From a virus, in IMG/VR virus record IMGVR_UViG_3300042914_000701, positions 1 to 25,374 of that record: a stretch of 25,374 nt of DNA; one strand, written 5' to 3'. Made by a program: the position numbers and the translations under genes. The notes beneath the pieces were generated by a model. It was not told the DNA's origin. It saw only the letters and a list, made by a program, of their open reading frames with translations, and made no database searches. Shown here one piece after another: positions 8,631 to 13,453 of this stretch. Numbering within the stretch: the first letter of the stretch is position 1; every line of letters starts with the position of its first letter.

Positions 8631-9088
8631 ATCCGTATCTTATCCTCGGCGTTGTATTCGCAGTCGGTGTAGCCGGAGCAGGTGGCCTATACAAGGGTCA
8701 CAAGCTAGGTAAGGCTGAGGTTCAGCAACAATGGGATAAGGAGAAAGCCGAGCAATATGCTGCTTATGCTAAGGCTCAAGAAGAAGCCCGTAAGAAGGAG
8801 CAAGAGCTACAGGCTACTGCGGATCAACTAAGGAGGGAGAAAGATGAAGAAATCAGGGATATTGCTGCTAAGTCTGCTGCCCTTGCTAGTAAGTTGCGCG
8901 ACAGGAAAGACCGCCCCACCCAAACAGGTTCCGTGTCCAGTACCGCCAGCGTTGGATCAAGCGGCTGTAGCGGAAAAGAGCTTTACCGAGAGGATGGGGA
9001 ATTTCTTATCCGGATCGCTAGAGAAGCCGACGAACTCCGTACAGCCCTCAAGCAATGCTACACCCAGTACGAAGCCCTAAGAAAGTGA
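8627..9088 (+). CDS. Rz: Rz-like inner-membrane spanin subunit
   Basis: The 153-aa protein has an N-terminal signal anchor (~3-21, YLILGVVFAVGVAGAGGLY) and a long charged coiled-coil region (~28-90), the normal architecture of an i-spanin. The diagnostic feature is the complete o-spanin gene encoded within it in the +1 frame. In Gram-negative hosts the pair links inner and outer membranes and completes lysis by fusing them. It starts by ATGA overlap with the preceding gene, without its own strong ribosome site. The 3' end overlaps the converging leftward gene by 12 bases. Confidence 0.85.
   Translation: MNPYLILGVVFAVGVAGAGGLYKGHKLGKAEVQQQWDKEKAEQYAAYAKAQEEARKKEQELQATADQLRREKDEEIRDIAAKSAALASKLRDRKDRPTQTGSVSSTASVGSSGCSGKELYREDGEFLIRIAREADELRTALKQCYTQYEALRK
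8844..9080 (+). CDS. Rz1: Rz1-like outer-membrane spanin lipoprotein, nested in Rz
   Basis: This 78-aa gene lies wholly inside Rz in another frame. It has a strong ribosome site, AAGGAGG, ending seven bases before the ATG. The product begins with a lipoprotein signal (MKKSGILLLSLLPLLVSC, lipobox LVSC, lipidated Cys18) and its mature part is proline-rich (KQVPCPVPPAL, then KPTNSVQPSSNATPS), as in classical o-spanins. It should sit in the outer membrane and bind the periplasmic end of Rz. The nested arrangement is well known for spanins, so both calls support each other. Confidence 0.88.
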   Translation: MKKSGILLLSLLPLLVSCATGKTAPPKQVPCPVPPALDQAAVAEKSFTERMGNFLSGSLEKPTNSVQPSSNATPSTKP

Positions 9089-9283
9089 CTCTGAGGCTTG
9101 CGTAGCGATCTCTGAAGCCGTTTTTATCATCTGGTCATAGGTCTGACCACTACCCCTAGCTATTAAGCCTCCTAGAGCCGCTGCGAAGAAGATACGCCAA
9201 TCATCGTTGACTGGTACTCCCGTAACTTGTTCTGCCACAGGTTGCCACTTAGGATCATCAGGATTCTTACGAGGTCTGCCCAT
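9077..9283 (-). CDS. Small protein with AT-hook-like N-terminus
   Basis: The 68-aa product starts MGRPRKNPDDP, where GRPRK resembles a minor-groove AT-hook core, followed by a possibly helical region (WRIFFAAALGGLIARGSG). The ATG has AAGGGAA upstream on the minus strand. It is the last gene of the leftward operon and converges on Rz with a 12-base overlap. DNA binding is suggested only by the short basic motif; function unknown. Confidence 0.5.
   Translation of the reverse strand: MGRPRKNPDDPKWQPVAEQVTGVPVNDDWRIFFAAALGGLIARGSGQTYDQMIKTASEIATQASESLS
9095..9125 (+). terminator. Possible intrinsic terminator after the lysis cassette
   Basis: GGCTT at 9095-9099 can pair with AAGCC at 9115-9119, followed by G and five T residues (9121-9125). 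The stem is only five base pairs with a 15-base loop, so it is weak. Its placement just after the Rz stop, in the convergent overlap with the leftward operon, is what a late terminator would need. It lies inside the coding region of the leftward 68-aa gene. Confidence 0.3.
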
Positions 9284-9476
9284 TACGTTCCCTTAATTGT
9301 TTGATAATTTTATTGATGTGGTTTACTGGACTAGGTTTCCCAGATAGGTTCCTGTAGATACTTGGGGATTTCTTATCAAGGCAAGACTTACATATCCAGC
9401 GGTTAGTGCGTTTACCACGCCTAAATATCCCACCGTCTTCATCTCTCATGGCTTGGCAACTTGTGCAGAATTTCAT
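9267..9476 (-). CDS. Small zinc-finger-like protein
   Basis: This 69-aa protein has paired cysteines C4-x2-C7 and C29-x2-C32 (FCTSC and WICKSC), consistent with a four-cysteine zinc site, and a basic body (RRGKRTNRW) with a helical tail. Start and stop overlap neighbours, the start by ATGA with the membrane-protein gene. It resembles small phage zinc-ribbon proteins but no precise family is recognised. A nucleic-acid-binding or protein-interaction role is possible. Confidence 0.6.
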   Translation of the reverse strand: MKFCTSCQAMRDEDGGIFRRGKRTNRWICKSCLDKKSPSIYRNLSGKPSPVNHINKIIKQLRERNGQTS

Positions 9477-9664
9477 AGTCTACGTTGGCAGGTAAAGGCT
9501 TGGATGTCTACGCGAAATGCCCCTGCAAACTTACAATCAGAGGCTATCCGAGATTCTGTTTGAATCCCACCAACGTACCAGCCGATAACGCATAACAAGA
9601 TGGCAACGATAGATTTAGCCCACCAGTCAAGCACCATATCAACAGCTTTAGATAGATCATTCAT
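9473..9664 (-). CDS. Small single-pass membrane protein
   Basis: The 63-aa product has a transmembrane helix at ~15-34 (WAKSIVAILLCVIGWYVGGI) and a short C-terminal part with two cysteines. It overlaps the MazG-like gene by eight bases and the zinc-finger gene by four, so it is firmly inside the leftward operon. No homologue is recognised. It may act on the host membrane early in infection, but that is only inference. Confidence 0.55.
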   Translation of the reverse strand: MNDLSKAVDMVLDWWAKSIVAILLCVIGWYVGGIQTESRIASDCKFAGAFRVDIQAFTCQRRL

Positions 9665-9962
9665 CTTTAACGAATACCCCTTCTTTGTTTAGATAGCCCT
9701 TGCGATCCTTAATCTGCTCGTAGGCTGACTGGAAGCATTGTTTCAGATCGACATCTTCAATAGCAGCAACCATAGTGAGGCATACAAGAACGTCCCCAAG
9801 TCCATCAATAATTGATTCACGGTCTCGCTTGGTAATCGCATCTGCTAACTCTCCCATCTCAGAAAAAGCCTTCAATAGCTGCGTTTTAGCGTCAGAGTTC
9901 TGAATAATCCCTCTAGCCTCACCCCAACGAACTACTACTAATTCTGTAGCCTCGTAGCTCAT
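9657..9962 (-). CDS. MazG-like nucleotide pyrophosphohydrolase
   Basis: This 101-aa protein matches the all-alpha NTP pyrophosphatase pattern: acidic residues E35 and E38 in SEMGELADAI, then D53 and D57 in DGLGDVLV, the usual ExxE ... DxxxD metal-binding arrangement. Related enzymes hydrolyse NTPs or dNTPs to monophosphates; phage versions are thought to adjust nucleotide pools or alarmone signalling, though the substrate cannot be told from sequence. The length fits a single MazG-like domain. It starts by ATGA overlap with the HTH gene. Confidence 0.8.
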   Translation of the reverse strand: MSYEATELVVVRWGEARGIIQNSDAKTQLLKAFSEMGELADAITKRDRESIIDGLGDVLVCLTMVAAIEDVDLKQCFQSAYEQIKDRKGYLNKEGVFVKDE

Positions 9963-10150
9963 AGGAAACTCTCAATCTCAACGATAGGCATATCGAAAGC
10001 CTTGTGGATGGCAATCTTAGTCTCAGCCGATACGCCATTGTGTCCGTTACGAATCTTGCTAATCGTAGGCATGGATACGCCTATCTTTAGGGCTAGTTGA
10101 CGGTCGTTCTTGATCTTGTGCGTTTCTTTCAAATAGTCCAACAGTTTCAT
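9959..10150 (-). CDS. Small HTH regulator (Cro/CI-like)
   Basis: The start at 10150 is preferred over upstream in-frame starts at 10201 and 10195 because AGGAGAG lies directly upstream of this ATG and the product then begins at the domain edge (MKLLDYLKETHKIK). The 63-aa protein is little more than one helix-turn-helix (~15-35, NDRQLALKIGVSMPTISKIR) and matches Cro/CI-type XRE domains. There is no protease or oligomerisation domain, so a Cro-like or auxiliary regulator is more likely than a full lysogeny repressor. An inverted repeat just upstream could be its operator. Confidence 0.8.
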   Translation of the reverse strand: MKLLDYLKETHKIKNDRQLALKIGVSMPTISKIRNGHNGVSAETKIAIHKAFDMPIVEIESFL

Positions 10151-10353
10151 TTTCTCTCCTGAGTTAGTAAACCGCTTACGGCGGTTAGTCGGCATACTCA
10201 CATAGAAGGGGAGACAAGCGTAAAGGAGCTATGCGTATGCTGCGTAGGTTACGCGCCACCTATCGCTAGGCTTAAGGGTGAGGTACTCGCTTCACCAGTT
10301 CTATCCTTGACGATTTATTAATCGAAAAGCTGGCATCCGCTTTCCCTCGTAGA
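10151..10353. other. Non-coding gap between Cys-rich peptide and HTH gene
   Basis: About 200 bases without a convincing gene. It holds several short inverted repeats and recurrent GCGTA words. A 12-codon plus-strand frame at 10231 and an 11-codon minus-strand frame near 10338 are visible but too short to call. This is the longest gap in the leftward operon, so an internal promoter or operator for the HTH-MazG segment is plausible. Confidence 0.5.
10170..10186. promoter_or_regulatory. Inverted repeat, possible operator of the HTH gene
   Basis: AACCGC-TTACG-GCGGTT is a perfect 6-bp inverted repeat with a 5-base spacer, 20 bases upstream of the HTH start codon. The symmetry and place suit autoregulation by a small dimeric repressor. 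Other short symmetric sequences (GCGTA-GGT-TACGC near 10242-10254 and CGATT-TATT-AATCG near 10310-10323) lie in the same 200-base gap. A binding role is inferred. Confidence 0.35.
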
Positions 10354-10500
10354 TCAATAGCAGCTCGTATTACACGAGGCTCCATAACAGCAAGTTGTAC
10401 AAGTTACACATCGACCAGCATCACAGTATGTGTGATAGGTACAAGTAGCGTAAACGAATGGTGCTGTAACTGCTAACCAAAATGCGACTAGGTATTTCAT
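10354..10500 (-). CDS. Cysteine-rich secreted peptide (48 aa)
   Basis: The ATG at 10500 is preceded by a near-perfect Shine-Dalgarno sequence (AAGGAGGAGTT) that overlaps the stop of the upstream gene. The peptide has a signal sequence (MKYLVAFWLAVTAPFVYA, cleavage likely after YA at 17-18) and a ~30-residue mature part with eight cysteines at 20, 26, 31, 34, 37, 38, 43 and 47, plus several Tyr and Thr. The spacing, including a CC pair, would suit three or four disulfides in the periplasm or a metal-binding knot. It is an early gene between the SSB-like and HTH genes. No family is recognised. Confidence 0.75.
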   Translation of the reverse strand: MKYLVAFWLAVTAPFVYATCTYHTYCDAGRCVTCTTCCYGASCNTSCY

Positions 10501-10509
10501 AACTCCTCC

Positions 10510-10749
10510 TTAGAATGGTGCGTCACTAAGATCATCGTCTTGAAACTCAGTCTTCTTTGCTGGCTTCTTAGTCTCTTTTGGTTTAACCGCTAGAGAAAAG
10601 AACTTACCTGCTTTACCTTCTTTTAACCATCCAGAAAGCCAGTAATCCTTACCATCGATATTAATAGTGCCACTATAGTCTGGATGTCTATCCTCACTCT
10701 TATTTGAGTTACGGCCTAATGTACCCCTGTTAGTGTTGTCGTATTCCAT
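10510..10749 (-). CDS. SSB-like small protein with acidic C-terminal tail
   Basis: The 79-aa protein contains a probable beta-rich segment (~24-55, PDYSGTINIDGKDYWLSGWL and AGKFFSLAVKPK), a lysine-rich linker, and ends in DDDLSDAPF. The acidic tip resembles the DDDIPF-type tail through which bacterial SSB recruits partner proteins. It lies two bases after the ERF annealing protein, a neighbour that often has an SSB partner. The core is shorter than an ordinary OB-fold SSB of ~110 residues, so I call it SSB-like rather than SSB. Confidence 0.55.
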   Translation of the reverse strand: MEYDNTNRGTLGRNSNKSEDRHPDYSGTINIDGKDYWLSGWLKEGKAGKFFSLAVKPKETKKPAKKTEFQDDDLSDAPF

Positions 10750-10751
10750 GA

Positions 10752-11405
10752 TTATCCTTTAGTAAATTTCTTAATTGCACTACGTTGCTTGCTATCCAAT
10801 AGACTCCAGAGTGCAGTCTTCCAATCTGCATCTAGTCCTAAAGAATTGATGTATTCCACAGCGTCTGCTACCTGATCCTTGTGAATCATCAGGATGATGT
10901 CTGCTGCGTAGCTACGAATCTCGTCTTGAGATTCTGAGTCAAGATCGTCGAATACGGACTTAGTAATCGGCTTTGCTGACTTAGGTTCGTCTGAGCCTGT
11001 AGTAGCGTCTAGTGCGTCATGCTCACAGATTGCCAGAGCCATTACCAGCAGATACCGAGTAATGTAGGTAATCGATGCACCTAGATTCTGTACTTCATGG
11101 CATCCCTTGAGTTGAGCAGAAGCCATAGGGCAGGTGAACTTAGTGCAACCACCGTTGACCGTATCAATGACTCGCATAGTCGCTAGTTCGCTGGTGAACT
11201 CTAGCGTATGGCACAGTCCTAGTTCAGCGAATATCGAGTTGACTGTAGGCAGGAAATCGGTCAGTTCAAAGTACCGATAGCCAGCAAACTTATTGTGTCC
11301 TGACTTCTTGAGTTCTACGTTCTGGAGCTTGACTCTGGCTTCCTGTAGCTTTTGGTAGACGAGCCATTGCTGCTGTTCTTCTTGTTCCTGTTGACGGTTA
11401 TCCAT
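10752..11405 (-). CDS. erf: ERF-family single-strand annealing protein
   Basis: This 217-aa protein shows the ERF pattern: KSGHNKFAGYRYFELTDFL at ~34-52, an aromatic-rich segment leading to SIFAELGL, and GASITYITRYLLVMALAI at ~109-126. ERF proteins bind single-stranded DNA and anneal homologous strands, promoting phage recombination and genome circularisation. The C-terminal ~80 residues form an acidic helical tail that may bind SSB or DNA. An SSB-like gene follows directly, forming a compact recombination unit. No exonuclease partner is seen in this operon. Confidence 0.88.
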   Translation of the reverse strand: MDNRQQEQEEQQQWLVYQKLQEARVKLQNVELKKSGHNKFAGYRYFELTDFLPTVNSIFAELGLCHTLEFTSELATMRVIDTVNGGCTKFTCPMASAQLKGCHEVQNLGASITYITRYLLVMALAICEHDALDATTGSDEPKSAKPITKSVFDDLDSESQDEIRSYAADIILMIHKDQVADAVEYINSLGLDADWKTALWSLLDSKQRSAIKKFTKG

Positions 11406-11408
11406 TAT

Positions 11409-11579
11409 TTATCCTTTAGCGAATTTCTTATTGAAGATGATATTGTTAGATTGTGTTTTCTCATTAGTTTGTATCTTTGCAGCCTCCTTTTGCTCTTTGC
11501 GAATACGGTCAAAAGTTTTACGAATGTTTGTTTTGCCAGACGGGACATATTTAAAACTCGGGTCTAGGATTGATGTCAT
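11409..11579 (-). CDS. Small basic phage protein (56 aa)
   Basis: The ATG overlaps the stop of the upstream 36-aa gene (ATGA on the minus strand, 11579-11576), and the stop lies three bases before the ERF start. The product begins MTSILDPSFKYVPSGKT and continues NIRKTFDRIRKEQ, with a basic helical C-terminus. I recall short phage proteins with this SFKYV...T..TF.R.R pattern but know no function. The coupled position argues that it is genuine despite its size. Confidence 0.6.
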   Translation of the reverse strand: MTSILDPSFKYVPSGKTNIRKTFDRIRKEQKEAAKIQTNEKTQSNNIIFNKKFAKG

Positions 11580-11686
11580 AGGCTGTCCAAGAGTAACGAT
11601 AGGAGGAGCAACAGAAAGATGACTTTACCAGAATGGCGGTCAATGAAGTCGGCTAGCTTATCGTCTGCTCTGAATAGTTTGTTCAT
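11576..11686 (-). CDS. Tiny membrane protein (36 aa)
   Basis: The start overlaps the upstream stop by ATGA and has AAAGGGAG upstream. The product is MNKLFRADDKLADFIDRHSG followed by a hydrophobic helix (KVIFLLLLLSLLLDSL), so it should be a single-pass or tail-anchored membrane peptide. Its stop overlaps the next ATG. Both couplings and the ribosome site support expression. Function unknown. Confidence 0.55.
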   Translation of the reverse strand: MNKLFRADDKLADFIDRHSGKVIFLLLLLSLLLDSL

Positions 11687-12000
11687 ACGTCGCTCCCTTT
11701 ATATTCTCGGTCTTTACGTTCTTGGTAGAGGCGATCTTCACGGTCAAAGTAACGATCTTCCTCAGTCTCCTCGTACTCCGGCAACTTCTTTTCCTTAACG
11801 GTACGGTTAATCATCCCGATAATGAACCGTTGCAGATTGTCACGGAGTTGGATAGGATTTTGATGATGTTGCGACCAAACCCATAACATCTGCGAGAATT
11901 CTTCACCAATATCTGCGGCTGTCATGTGGCAAAGTACATCGTCAGGATGTCCGTCCAGTAGCTCGTAAAGTAGGAACTGCTCGAATTCTTGTGCGTTCAT
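11683..12000 (-). CDS. Unknown 105-aa early protein
   Basis: This is the first gene of the leftward operon. The product has a helical N-terminal ~75 residues (FEQFLLYELLDG, then LWVWSQHHQN) and a strongly charged C-terminal tail (EYEETEEDRYFDREDR). An AAGGGAT site precedes the ATG. No family is recognised. First position in an early operon suggests a regulatory or host-takeover role, but nothing in the sequence shows it. Confidence 0.6.
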   Translation of the reverse strand: MNAQEFEQFLLYELLDGHPDDVLCHMTAADIGEEFSQMLWVWSQHHQNPIQLRDNLQRFIIGMINRTVKEKKLPEYEETEEDRYFDREDRLYQERKDREYKGSDV

Positions 12001-12286: not shown

Positions 12287-12401
12287 GAAATACCACCACG
12301 GGCTACGTTATTGCGCTGGCTGTAAGAAGTCTAGGTCATCAATCCAATTCGGAGACCTAGAGGTTTGCAAGATTTGTCAGTTAAGAGAGGTTAAGGTATA
12401 G
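12225..12401 (+). CDS. Small four-cysteine zinc-finger protein (58 aa)
   Basis: Translation from TTG at 12225 is favoured by GAGGA seven bases upstream. The product has C30-x2-C33 (RYCAGC) and C48-x2-C51 (VCKIC) with a 14-residue loop containing basic and beta-prone residues, a standard zinc-ribbon or treble-clef-like layout, after a disordered ~25-residue N-terminus. It lies directly before a structured terminator RNA, which raises the possibility of a role in RNA binding or early regulation, but no direct evidence exists. The start codon is unusual. Confidence 0.55.
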   Translation: MKEEPSKSLAATSSDKTGTIKKYHHGLRYCAGCKKSRSSIQFGDLEVCKICQLREVKV

Positions 12402-12414
12402 TTTAAGCAGTAGT

Positions 12415-12521
12415 ACACGCTTGGAGGCGTGTTTTGAGTAAGCCTTAGATGAGACTCTGCTGGTACTCACCAGTCCTCCAACGCCCAACTTTGGGTGAGA
12501 GTCTCACCTAGGGCTTTTTTT
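12415..12521 (+). ncRNA. Structured RNA element before the replication operon
   Basis: The RNA can fold into an upstream hairpin (12415-12420 with 12427-12432, loop TTGGAG), then a long stem (12442-12458 with 12498-12514) enclosing two smaller hairpins (12460-12464 with 12469-12473, and 12482-12488 with 12491-12497). The loop TTGGAG plus the next G is perfectly complementary to CCTCCAA at 12475-12481 in the junction, allowing a loop-junction contact. It ends in T7. Candidates are a regulated leader, an antitermination site or a discrete small RNA. No known family is recognised. Confidence 0.6.
12440..12521 (+). terminator. Intrinsic terminator with branched stem
   Basis: AAGCCTTAGATGAGACTCT pairs with AGAGTCTCACCTAGGGCTT over 19 positions, with one G-U pair and one A-C mismatch, and is followed by a seven-T run (12515-12521). 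Unlike a simple terminator the loop is ~39 bases and contains two hairpins. It would stop rightward early transcription before the replication genes unless antitermination or a refolding step intervenes. On the other strand no T run follows. Confidence 0.7.
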
Positions 12522-12534
12522 ATTGGAAAAAGCT

Positions 12535-12750
12535 ATGTTGAAATTTCGTGCATCAGAAGGATTAGAGGTTTACATCAGCGACGTAGGTTGCTTAGTGTTA
12601 AAGCAAGATAGTTTTGAATTTGGCAAGGAAGTAACTGTAGTTTTGACTCCCGGACAGGCTTATCACGTTAAGCAATTAATTGACGATTTCCACGATGAAA
12701 TGGTCAATGATTGGAACGAGGGGCTGATTCAGGAGCCTCCAAATGCCTAA
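12535..12750 (+). CDS. Unknown 71-aa protein, first gene of the replication operon
   Basis: The ATG at 12535 is chosen over the TTG at 12523, which lies next to the terminator T run. The product looks beta-rich at the start (MLKFRASEGLEVYISDVGC) and helical later (GQAYHVKQLIDDFHDEMV). The ribosome site is weak (GGAAAAAG). It overlaps the helicase-loader gene by eight bases. No family is recognised. Confidence 0.55.
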   Translation: MLKFRASEGLEVYISDVGCLVLKQDSFEFGKEVTVVLTPGQAYHVKQLIDDFHDEMVNDWNEGLIQEPPNA

Positions 12751-13453
12751 ACGTCCATCATTCCAGTTCTATCCCTCCGATTGGCTGAGGGATACGGCAC
12801 TAAGGTCATGCTCAACAGGAGCCAGAGGGCTATGGATAGACATGATCTGTTTTATGCACGAAGGTAATCCTTACGGACATCTTAAGGTTGGGGATAAGGT
12901 TATCCTCCCAGTAAACCTTGCGCGTATGGTTGGGGAAACCTTAGAGGTTGTCGAAGGTTGGCTAAAAGAGTTACATCATGCAGGGGTCTATGACCTTACT
13001 GAAGATGGGACTATATGCAGCCGTAGGATGATTCGGGATGAAAACCTAAGACAAATCAGGGCGTTAGGTGGAAAACTTGGTGGGAATCCAGCCTTAATAA
13101 ACGGTGATAAGGTTAACCTTAAGGTTATCCAAGAGGTTAAGCAAAATCCAACCCCTTCATCTTCATCTTCATCTTCATCTTCATCTTCAAAAGAAGAATA
13201 TAACGATCATTTTTTGAAATTCTGGAATGTCTATCCAAACAAGAAAGCAAAAGAAGCTGGTTGGAAAGCATTTAAGAAATTAAAAGTCGATGAAACATTT
13301 GTTTCTATGTTGATAAATGCTGTGCGTGAACAAGGATTGCTTTCCAAAGATGTTCAATACGTTCCTCATGCGTCAACATGGCTCAATGGCAAACGATGGA
13401 AAGATGAGGTCGTACCTAACGTCAATGCAACTATGGGGAGACGAGTTCTATGA
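12743..13453 (+). CDS. Replication initiator / helicase-loader-like protein
   Basis: The 236-aa protein has two domains joined by a poly-serine linker. The N-terminal ~120 residues (RPSFQFYPSDWLRDTAL, ARGLWIDMICFMHE) look like a winged-helix module found in phage replication proteins. Residues ~133-147 contain 11 consecutive serines. The C-terminal ~80 residues (FLKFWNVYPNKKAKEAGWKAFKKL, ending HASTWLNGKRW) match a conserved region of phage O-like and helicase-loading proteins. It probably recognises the origin and loads the helicase encoded downstream; the origin itself is not located. ATGA overlap with the next gene. Confidence 0.7.
   Translation: MPKRPSFQFYPSDWLRDTALRSCSTGARGLWIDMICFMHEGNPYGHLKVGDKVILPVNLARMVGETLEVVEGWLKELHHAGVYDLTEDGTICSRRMIRDENLRQIRALGGKLGGNPALINGDKVNLKVIQEVKQNPTPSSSSSSSSSSSKEEYNDHFLKFWNVYPNKKAKEAGWKAFKKLKVDETFVSMLINAVREQGLLSKDVQYVPHASTWLNGKRWKDEVVPNVNATMGRRVL
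13155..13190 (+). repeat. CTTCAT hexanucleotide repeat coding for poly-serine
   Basis: Five perfect CTTCAT units followed by CTTCAA run from 13155 to 13190 inside the replication-protein gene and encode alternating TCT/TCA serine codons. Length variation would lengthen or shorten the linker by two residues per unit without a frameshift. Confidence 0.9.

Follow-up and report, generated by a model that had tools for sequence, protein, structure and literature searches.

The window analysed here is a 25,374 nt stretch of viral DNA (IMG/VR record IMGVR_UViG_3300042914_000701), in which the interval 12402–12534 forms the gap between a 58-aa zinc-ribbon-like ORF, with its stop codon at 12399–12401, and the start codon of the next gene (Table 1). 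The first gene beyond this gap is a 71-aa ORF, followed by a replication gene; the segment had earlier been assigned to the boundary between the early genes and the replication operon. A sigma70-type promoter-like sequence, overlooked in the first-pass annotation, ends at position 12402, and the 5′ end of the RNA is therefore probably located just before hairpin 1. Positions 12409–12521 represent the window's member of a structured RNA family, located in this freshwater phage ahead of DNA-replication genes. Two other features of the neighbourhood were recorded. A TCTTCA tandem repeat (13160–13190) lies midway along the replication gene, where it codes for a run of serines, and might represent a linker or a repeat of origin type. 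On the minus strand, a leftward operon (9077–12000) encoding an HTH protein, an SSB and an Erf-like annealing protein faces the rightward replication operon.

Table 1. Features at the structured RNA locus of the window
Feature	Coordinates	Strand	Remarks
Sigma70-type promoter, TTGTCA-17-TATAGT	12374..12402	+	promoter-like; –10 box and zinc-ribbon ORF stop codon overlap
Hairpin 1 (H1), ACACGC-TTGGAG-GCGTGT	12415..12432	+	stem 12415–12420 : 12427–12432, loop TTGGAG; stem covaries, 95.7 % of cells paired
PK1 5′ strand, TTGGAGG	12421..12427	+	7 of 7 paired in 100 of 100 copies; two-sided changes at three columns
PK2 5′ strand (X), TGAGTA	12435..12440	+	abuts the terminator stem with zero linker
P2 5′ arm of terminator stem, AGCCTTAGATGAGACTC	12441..12457	+	mismatch at A12449
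P3 hairpin, CTGG-loop-CCAG	12460..12473	+	CACC/GGTG instead in L056 and L074
PK2 3′ strand, TACTCA	12464..12469	+	entire P3 loop; four core pairs, 96.9 % of cells paired
PK1 3′ strand, CCTCCAA	12475..12481	+	joins P3 to P4; covaries with the 5′ strand
P4 hairpin	12482..12497	+	length variable; C-G closing pair invariant
P2 3′ arm, GAGTCTCACCTAGGGCT	12499..12515	+	16 of 17 pairs changed on both sides
T7 run of intrinsic terminator	12515..12521	+	directly 3′ of P2
Candidate alternative hairpin P5 (GCTTTTT : AAAAAGC)	12513..12533	+	overlaps terminator base, U-run and Shine-Dalgarno-like segment
First gene 3′ of the terminator, 71 aa	12535..12750	+	no assigned function; start 13 nt beyond the T run
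Replication initiation/primosomal-type protein	12743..13453	+	PHROGs phrog_9327, phrog_270 and phrog_9474

The segment 12380–12540 had a folding z-score of –4.15 relative to dinucleotide shuffles, and none of 200 shuffles folded as well. Initial inspection had described a hairpin, a 19-position stem enclosing two more hairpins and a T7 run. All of these parts are present, but the stem comprises 17 positions with one A.C mismatch; T12458.A12498, adjoining P2, could make an 18th. The GC-containing stem is followed directly by a U-run, as expected from the sequence of an intrinsic terminator. The full complementarity that had been pointed out between the loop of hairpin 1 with its next G (TTGGAGG) and a CCTCCAA segment, with 47 nt between them, corresponds to a conserved, covarying pseudoknot (PK1) that every copy forms. 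PK2 (TGAGTA:TACTCA), a further pseudoknot that had been missed, pairs the strand between hairpin 1 and P2 with the P3 loop. Branching of the RNA was likewise borne out by folding and by the covarying stems of homologous copies. As judged by comparative analysis, the RNA is an arrangement of two interlocking pseudoknots built on a predicted transcription terminator.

Eighty viral-contig loci were retrieved using the replication protein of the window, and a covariance model (R1), constructed from 33 copies with the pseudoknots left out, detected the element in 36 of these; extra minus-strand matches were weak and arose as mirror images of the stem. At least 120 stretches of viral contigs were collected by a pattern scan, and the structure was present in all 100 of the loci tested with the model. 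A second scan, aimed at divergent members, gave more than 20 further copies, among them a subtype in which P3 and PK1 differ; some of its matches were due to chance and lacked the structure. The family has more than 140 copies in viral contigs, plus one in a Polynucleobacter prophage, with most copies derived from assembled metagenomes. Exactly one copy was present in each of 15 viral records searched whole, most of them 28–55 kb in length. The sole contig seen with two copies was L328 (L328:6137-6248 and L328:9524-9634), where one copy had a strongly altered PK1 (TTGGACT:AGTCCAA).

No match was obtained when the window region was compared by blast with annotated phages; the sole real matches of a consensus-like copy in such a search were the Manatee Spring phage genomes MW202462 and MW202544, which carry the element. 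Cellular copies were located in the chromosome of Polynucleobacter sp. UK-Kesae-W10, flanked by a CI-like repressor and replication genes, in one betaproteobacterial contig and in a third genome from the same order. The core pattern also matched elsewhere in bacterial genomes, mostly by chance. Prophage copies look rare, as no more were found in approximately 900 genomes, drawn from the genus, the order and the class, under stricter filters that can lose weak matches. For the window element, no Rfam 15 family reached its gathering threshold and nothing meaningful appeared at permissive thresholds, while literature searches found no description of the RNA. The element is a widespread RNA family for which neither Rfam nor the literature searched gave a counterpart.

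When 100 copies were aligned with a model lacking the pseudoknots, standard pairs occupied 96.7 % of 3822 cells and 32 of 39 pairs were changed on both sides. Compensatory stem changes among relatives, on which the structure proposed in the first-pass annotation had been made to depend, are therefore strongly present. The structure outscored all 500 shuffles and every slid register on each measure. Cell counts are inflated by related sequences, so weight was placed on how many distinct variants were seen and on the comparison with slid registers. Covariation was seen in all six helices, both pseudoknots among them. PK1 was complete in 100 of 100 copies, with co-variation at three positions, and is formed in the divergent subtype by UUGGUCG/CGACCAA, UUGGCCG/CGGCCAA, UUGGUGG/CCACCAA and UUGGACU/AGUCCAA. 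PK2 pairs 5–7 nt directly 5′ of the terminator stem with the P3 loop, and had a mean run of 5.98 bp among 57 distinct X/loop combinations as compared with 3.95 (maximum 4.26) when partners were swapped. The pattern used to fetch many of the copies fixed part of P3 and part of the 3′ strand of PK1, and so accounts in part for the invariance seen at those bases; it placed no constraint on P2 length or on complementarity within PK1 and PK2.

The terminator stem was exactly 17 positions long, without gaps, in 100 of 100 aligned copies, and 96 of these had a single mismatch located at position 9 (62 copies) or 10 (34 copies) from the U-run. Length is thus fixed although the P2 sequence turns over almost completely. 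Invariant bases are concentrated at the junction of P2, P3, PK1 and P4, in the segments CUUGG, UCUG, CCAAC and GAGA, and U.A and G.U pairs at this junction could close it completely.

A –10-like hexamer was found 9–18 nt 5′ of loop 1 in 106 of 110 distinct copies (shuffles: mean 35, maximum 47), which indicates that the RNA probably starts near the base of hairpin 1. At the other end, the start codon (ATG) is positioned about 8–16 nt 3′ of the U-run in most copies. This gap is too small for a separate promoter, implying that the next gene is transcribed through the terminator; transcription of the operon could also arise from promoters further upstream. The first downstream gene belongs to many unrelated families. 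Nine of ten tested representatives had matches to replication initiators, primosomal proteins or DnaD-like loaders, and the tenth to a ParB-like protein; other copies, like the window, have a small uncharacterised or endonuclease-like ORF first. A leader with a terminator, placed between promoter and gene, has the sequence signals of an attenuator. Position and conservation together point towards control of the replication operon; a control function had been suggested at the outset from the complexity of the terminator.

The usual proximity to replication initiation genes would also be expected of a replication-origin RNA, in which the transcript, or an R-loop formed from it, primes or regulates the start of DNA synthesis while the fold governs processing. 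Leader control explains this position equally well, and replacement of the element by an unrelated RNA, described below, would require two RNAs to share the priming role. We consider an origin RNA very improbable.

Genes upstream of the element vary and include zinc-ribbon, Cro/YdaS-like and other genes, and no general protein partner near the element was found among the upstream genes of the copies. The zinc-finger gene just upstream in the window had been named as a possible source of such a partner. This role was rejected as a general rule, since gene and element occur without each other: many copies lack the gene, and among 37 further zinc-ribbon loci only 11 have the window's element. In the other 26 loci, the same gene and –10 box are followed by another RNA, which is the int-alpA RNA (RF02996) or very close to it. 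One of these (L017) scored 47.6 bits for RF02996, against a gathering threshold of 35.8, while sub-gathering matches, mostly full length, were obtained for L299, L037, L042, L064, L276 and others. The RF02996 covariance model did not match the window element at gathering or among its permissive matches.

Carriers of the two RNAs share upstream DNA that, as far as the –10 box, reaches 99 % identity (97 % over 295 nt for L272 compared with the window), and the replication genes downstream are 77–82 % identical in some pairs carrying different RNAs. In sister phages, int-alpA RNA thus takes the position of the element: it follows the shared –10 box and zinc-ribbon gene and precedes similar replication genes. 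Both are compact structured RNAs, but int-alpA RNA has another sequence and fold, and a U-run terminator was not seen in it. The comparisons establish the structure, conservation and position of the element as well as its exchange with int-alpA RNA; in the space separating promoter from replication genes, either RNA looks able to stand in for the other.

The int-alpA RNA is typed as an sRNA in Rfam, which would favour a rival reading: the window-type element may itself be a discrete, stable phage sRNA that acts in trans by binding a host protein or RNA polymerase, with the replication genes relying on leaky readthrough. A promoter directly 5′ of hairpin 1, a U-run terminator at the 3′ end and a compact fold with an invariant core would all suit an RNA of this kind. 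However, the start codon lies a few nucleotides beyond the U-run, and the element is tied to the starts of replication operons with many different first genes. Moreover, conserved unpaired bases are few and there is accordingly no obvious single-stranded antisense seed free for base pairing. The presence of int-alpA RNA at the same site in sister phages argues for a cis role there. An sRNA acting in trans is an unlikely, though credible, explanation.

On balance, we favour a leader RNA that works in cis, gating the phage replication operon by means of a candidate intrinsic terminator. As the replication genes appear to be transcribed through this terminator, conditional termination would be the simplest reading; constitutive leaky readthrough would also fit. 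We infer termination at the U-run, the regulation of this termination and the nature of its candidate regulators. In the proposed course of events, transcription would begin at the promoter ending at 12402 and hairpin 1 would be made first. P3 would form as the RNA emerges and its loop would capture strand X (PK2), CCTCCAA would capture loop 1 (PK1), P4 would close and the terminator stem would be completed last. The lower 8–9 bp of P2 and the U-run would make up an intrinsic terminator of normal size, split by the conserved mismatch from the upper 7–8 bp, which would be part of a folded domain standing in place of the terminator's loop. Closure of the lower half before RNA polymerase leaves the U-run would release an RNA of ~110 nt; otherwise the replication genes would be expressed. 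The pseudoknotted domain may bias this choice, either by its own folding or through binding of a protein, a ligand or RNA polymerase at the invariant junction.

In a rigid-helix model, which is coarse and assumes A-form parameters, PK2 and a fully closed stem strained each other, less so as the lower pairs opened. The model required some five lower pairs to open when the junction pairs were formed, and almost none when the junction was open. This hints that PK2 could oppose termination, and one might guess that stabilised pseudoknots favour readthrough. Strict mutual exclusion of PK2 and the closed stem was considered and dropped, as the geometry gives only strain and the full stem is nearly compatible with PK2 when the junction is open. 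A further layer of control is possible in the shape of P5, a hairpin in which sequence just ahead of the ATG would pair with the base of the terminator and the U-run. The mean energy of this hairpin was –5.2 kcal/mol as compared with –1.9 for shuffled downstream segments, and –5.4 as compared with –3.7 kcal/mol when segments were swapped between phages, although this does not hold for every copy. The inverted repeat around the T run (12513–12533) has similar hairpins in many relatives despite differing sequence.

Among known systems, terminator riboswitches and protein-controlled attenuators share with the element the series of promoter, compact domain with an invariant junction, terminator and gene. 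In riboswitches the aptamer lies ahead of the terminator, whereas the aptamer-like domain of the element is inside and around the terminator hairpin, and no upstream antiterminator strand was found in the element. In phage lambda, nutR-tR1 places a terminator between cro and the replication genes; the element has a comparable position, after a cro-like site, but its structure is unrelated. The HDV ribozyme is a nested double pseudoknot with the strand order P1, P2, P3, P4, and HDV-like ribozymes have a catalytic C between P4 and P2 and a cleavage site 5′ of P1. The order PK1, P2, P3, P4 in the element is that of HDV P1–P4. Unlike in these ribozymes, P4 and P2 of the element are linked by a single invariant A and a candidate for the catalytic C is lacking; the PK1 5′ strand lies within a hairpin loop and the P3 loop pairs upstream of P2.

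The HK022 put sites consist of two stem-loops, ~70 nt in all, that suppress separate terminators (PMC9378689). A put-like RNA would act on its own RNA polymerase such that the enzyme ignores the terminator of the element and later ones. The element resembles putL and putR in being a structured RNA that opens an early phage transcript or lies close to its beginning and, like putL, lies just downstream of a promoter (PMC9378689); its pseudoknots can form ahead of completion of the terminator stem, and the lack of a general protein partner among neighbouring genes is in keeping with such action. In contrast to put, which has no built-in terminator, the element has an integral one, with a stem of fixed length within the fold, and two long-range pseudoknots. 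Its single copy per viral record (two in L328) also differs from an arrangement of one per early operon. We judge a put-like activity improbable.

The leader reading can be extended, tentatively and with the odds somewhat against it, to a new class of phage switch. Its terminator loop would be a ligand- or protein-binding double pseudoknot that decides on transcription of the operon before the terminator closes, and the switch would be functionally interchangeable with int-alpA RNA. If this is true, the int-alpA family, an orphan RNA now tied to the same genomic place, would acquire its first role. The location of the element marks the commitment of many environmental phages to DNA replication, suggesting that such phages use a structured RNA to control replication genes, alone or with an additional factor. 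The PK1 and PK2 pairings make compensatory mutation with a terminator readout a clear test.

Several minor observations concern other leaders at such sites. The int-alpA RNA was seen as a leader with the same promoter and replication genes in L272–L309 (for example L299:985-1050), L017:2469-2537, L037, L042 and L064, and its second hairpin loop is often complementary to sequence near the start of the next gene (CGTTAC:GTAACG in L299). One phage contig has int-alpA-like elements on opposite strands (L021:2908, plus; L021:4693, minus), and L097 has both an int-alpA-like element (L097:8204) and the window's RNA. In L011 and L048, a third, unrelated leader lies ~250–320 nt upstream of the replication gene. 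A hairpin loop in each is complementary to the loop of the following U-run terminator hairpin (GTAACAG : CTGTTAC in L011; GTACGAG : CTCGTAC in L048), a possible kissing-loop interaction in which both sides differ between the two examples. Another structured leader with a U-run (CCCTTCCTACTGCCG ... GGAGGGGCTTTTTTT), which fits none of these classes, was found upstream of the replication gene in L080.
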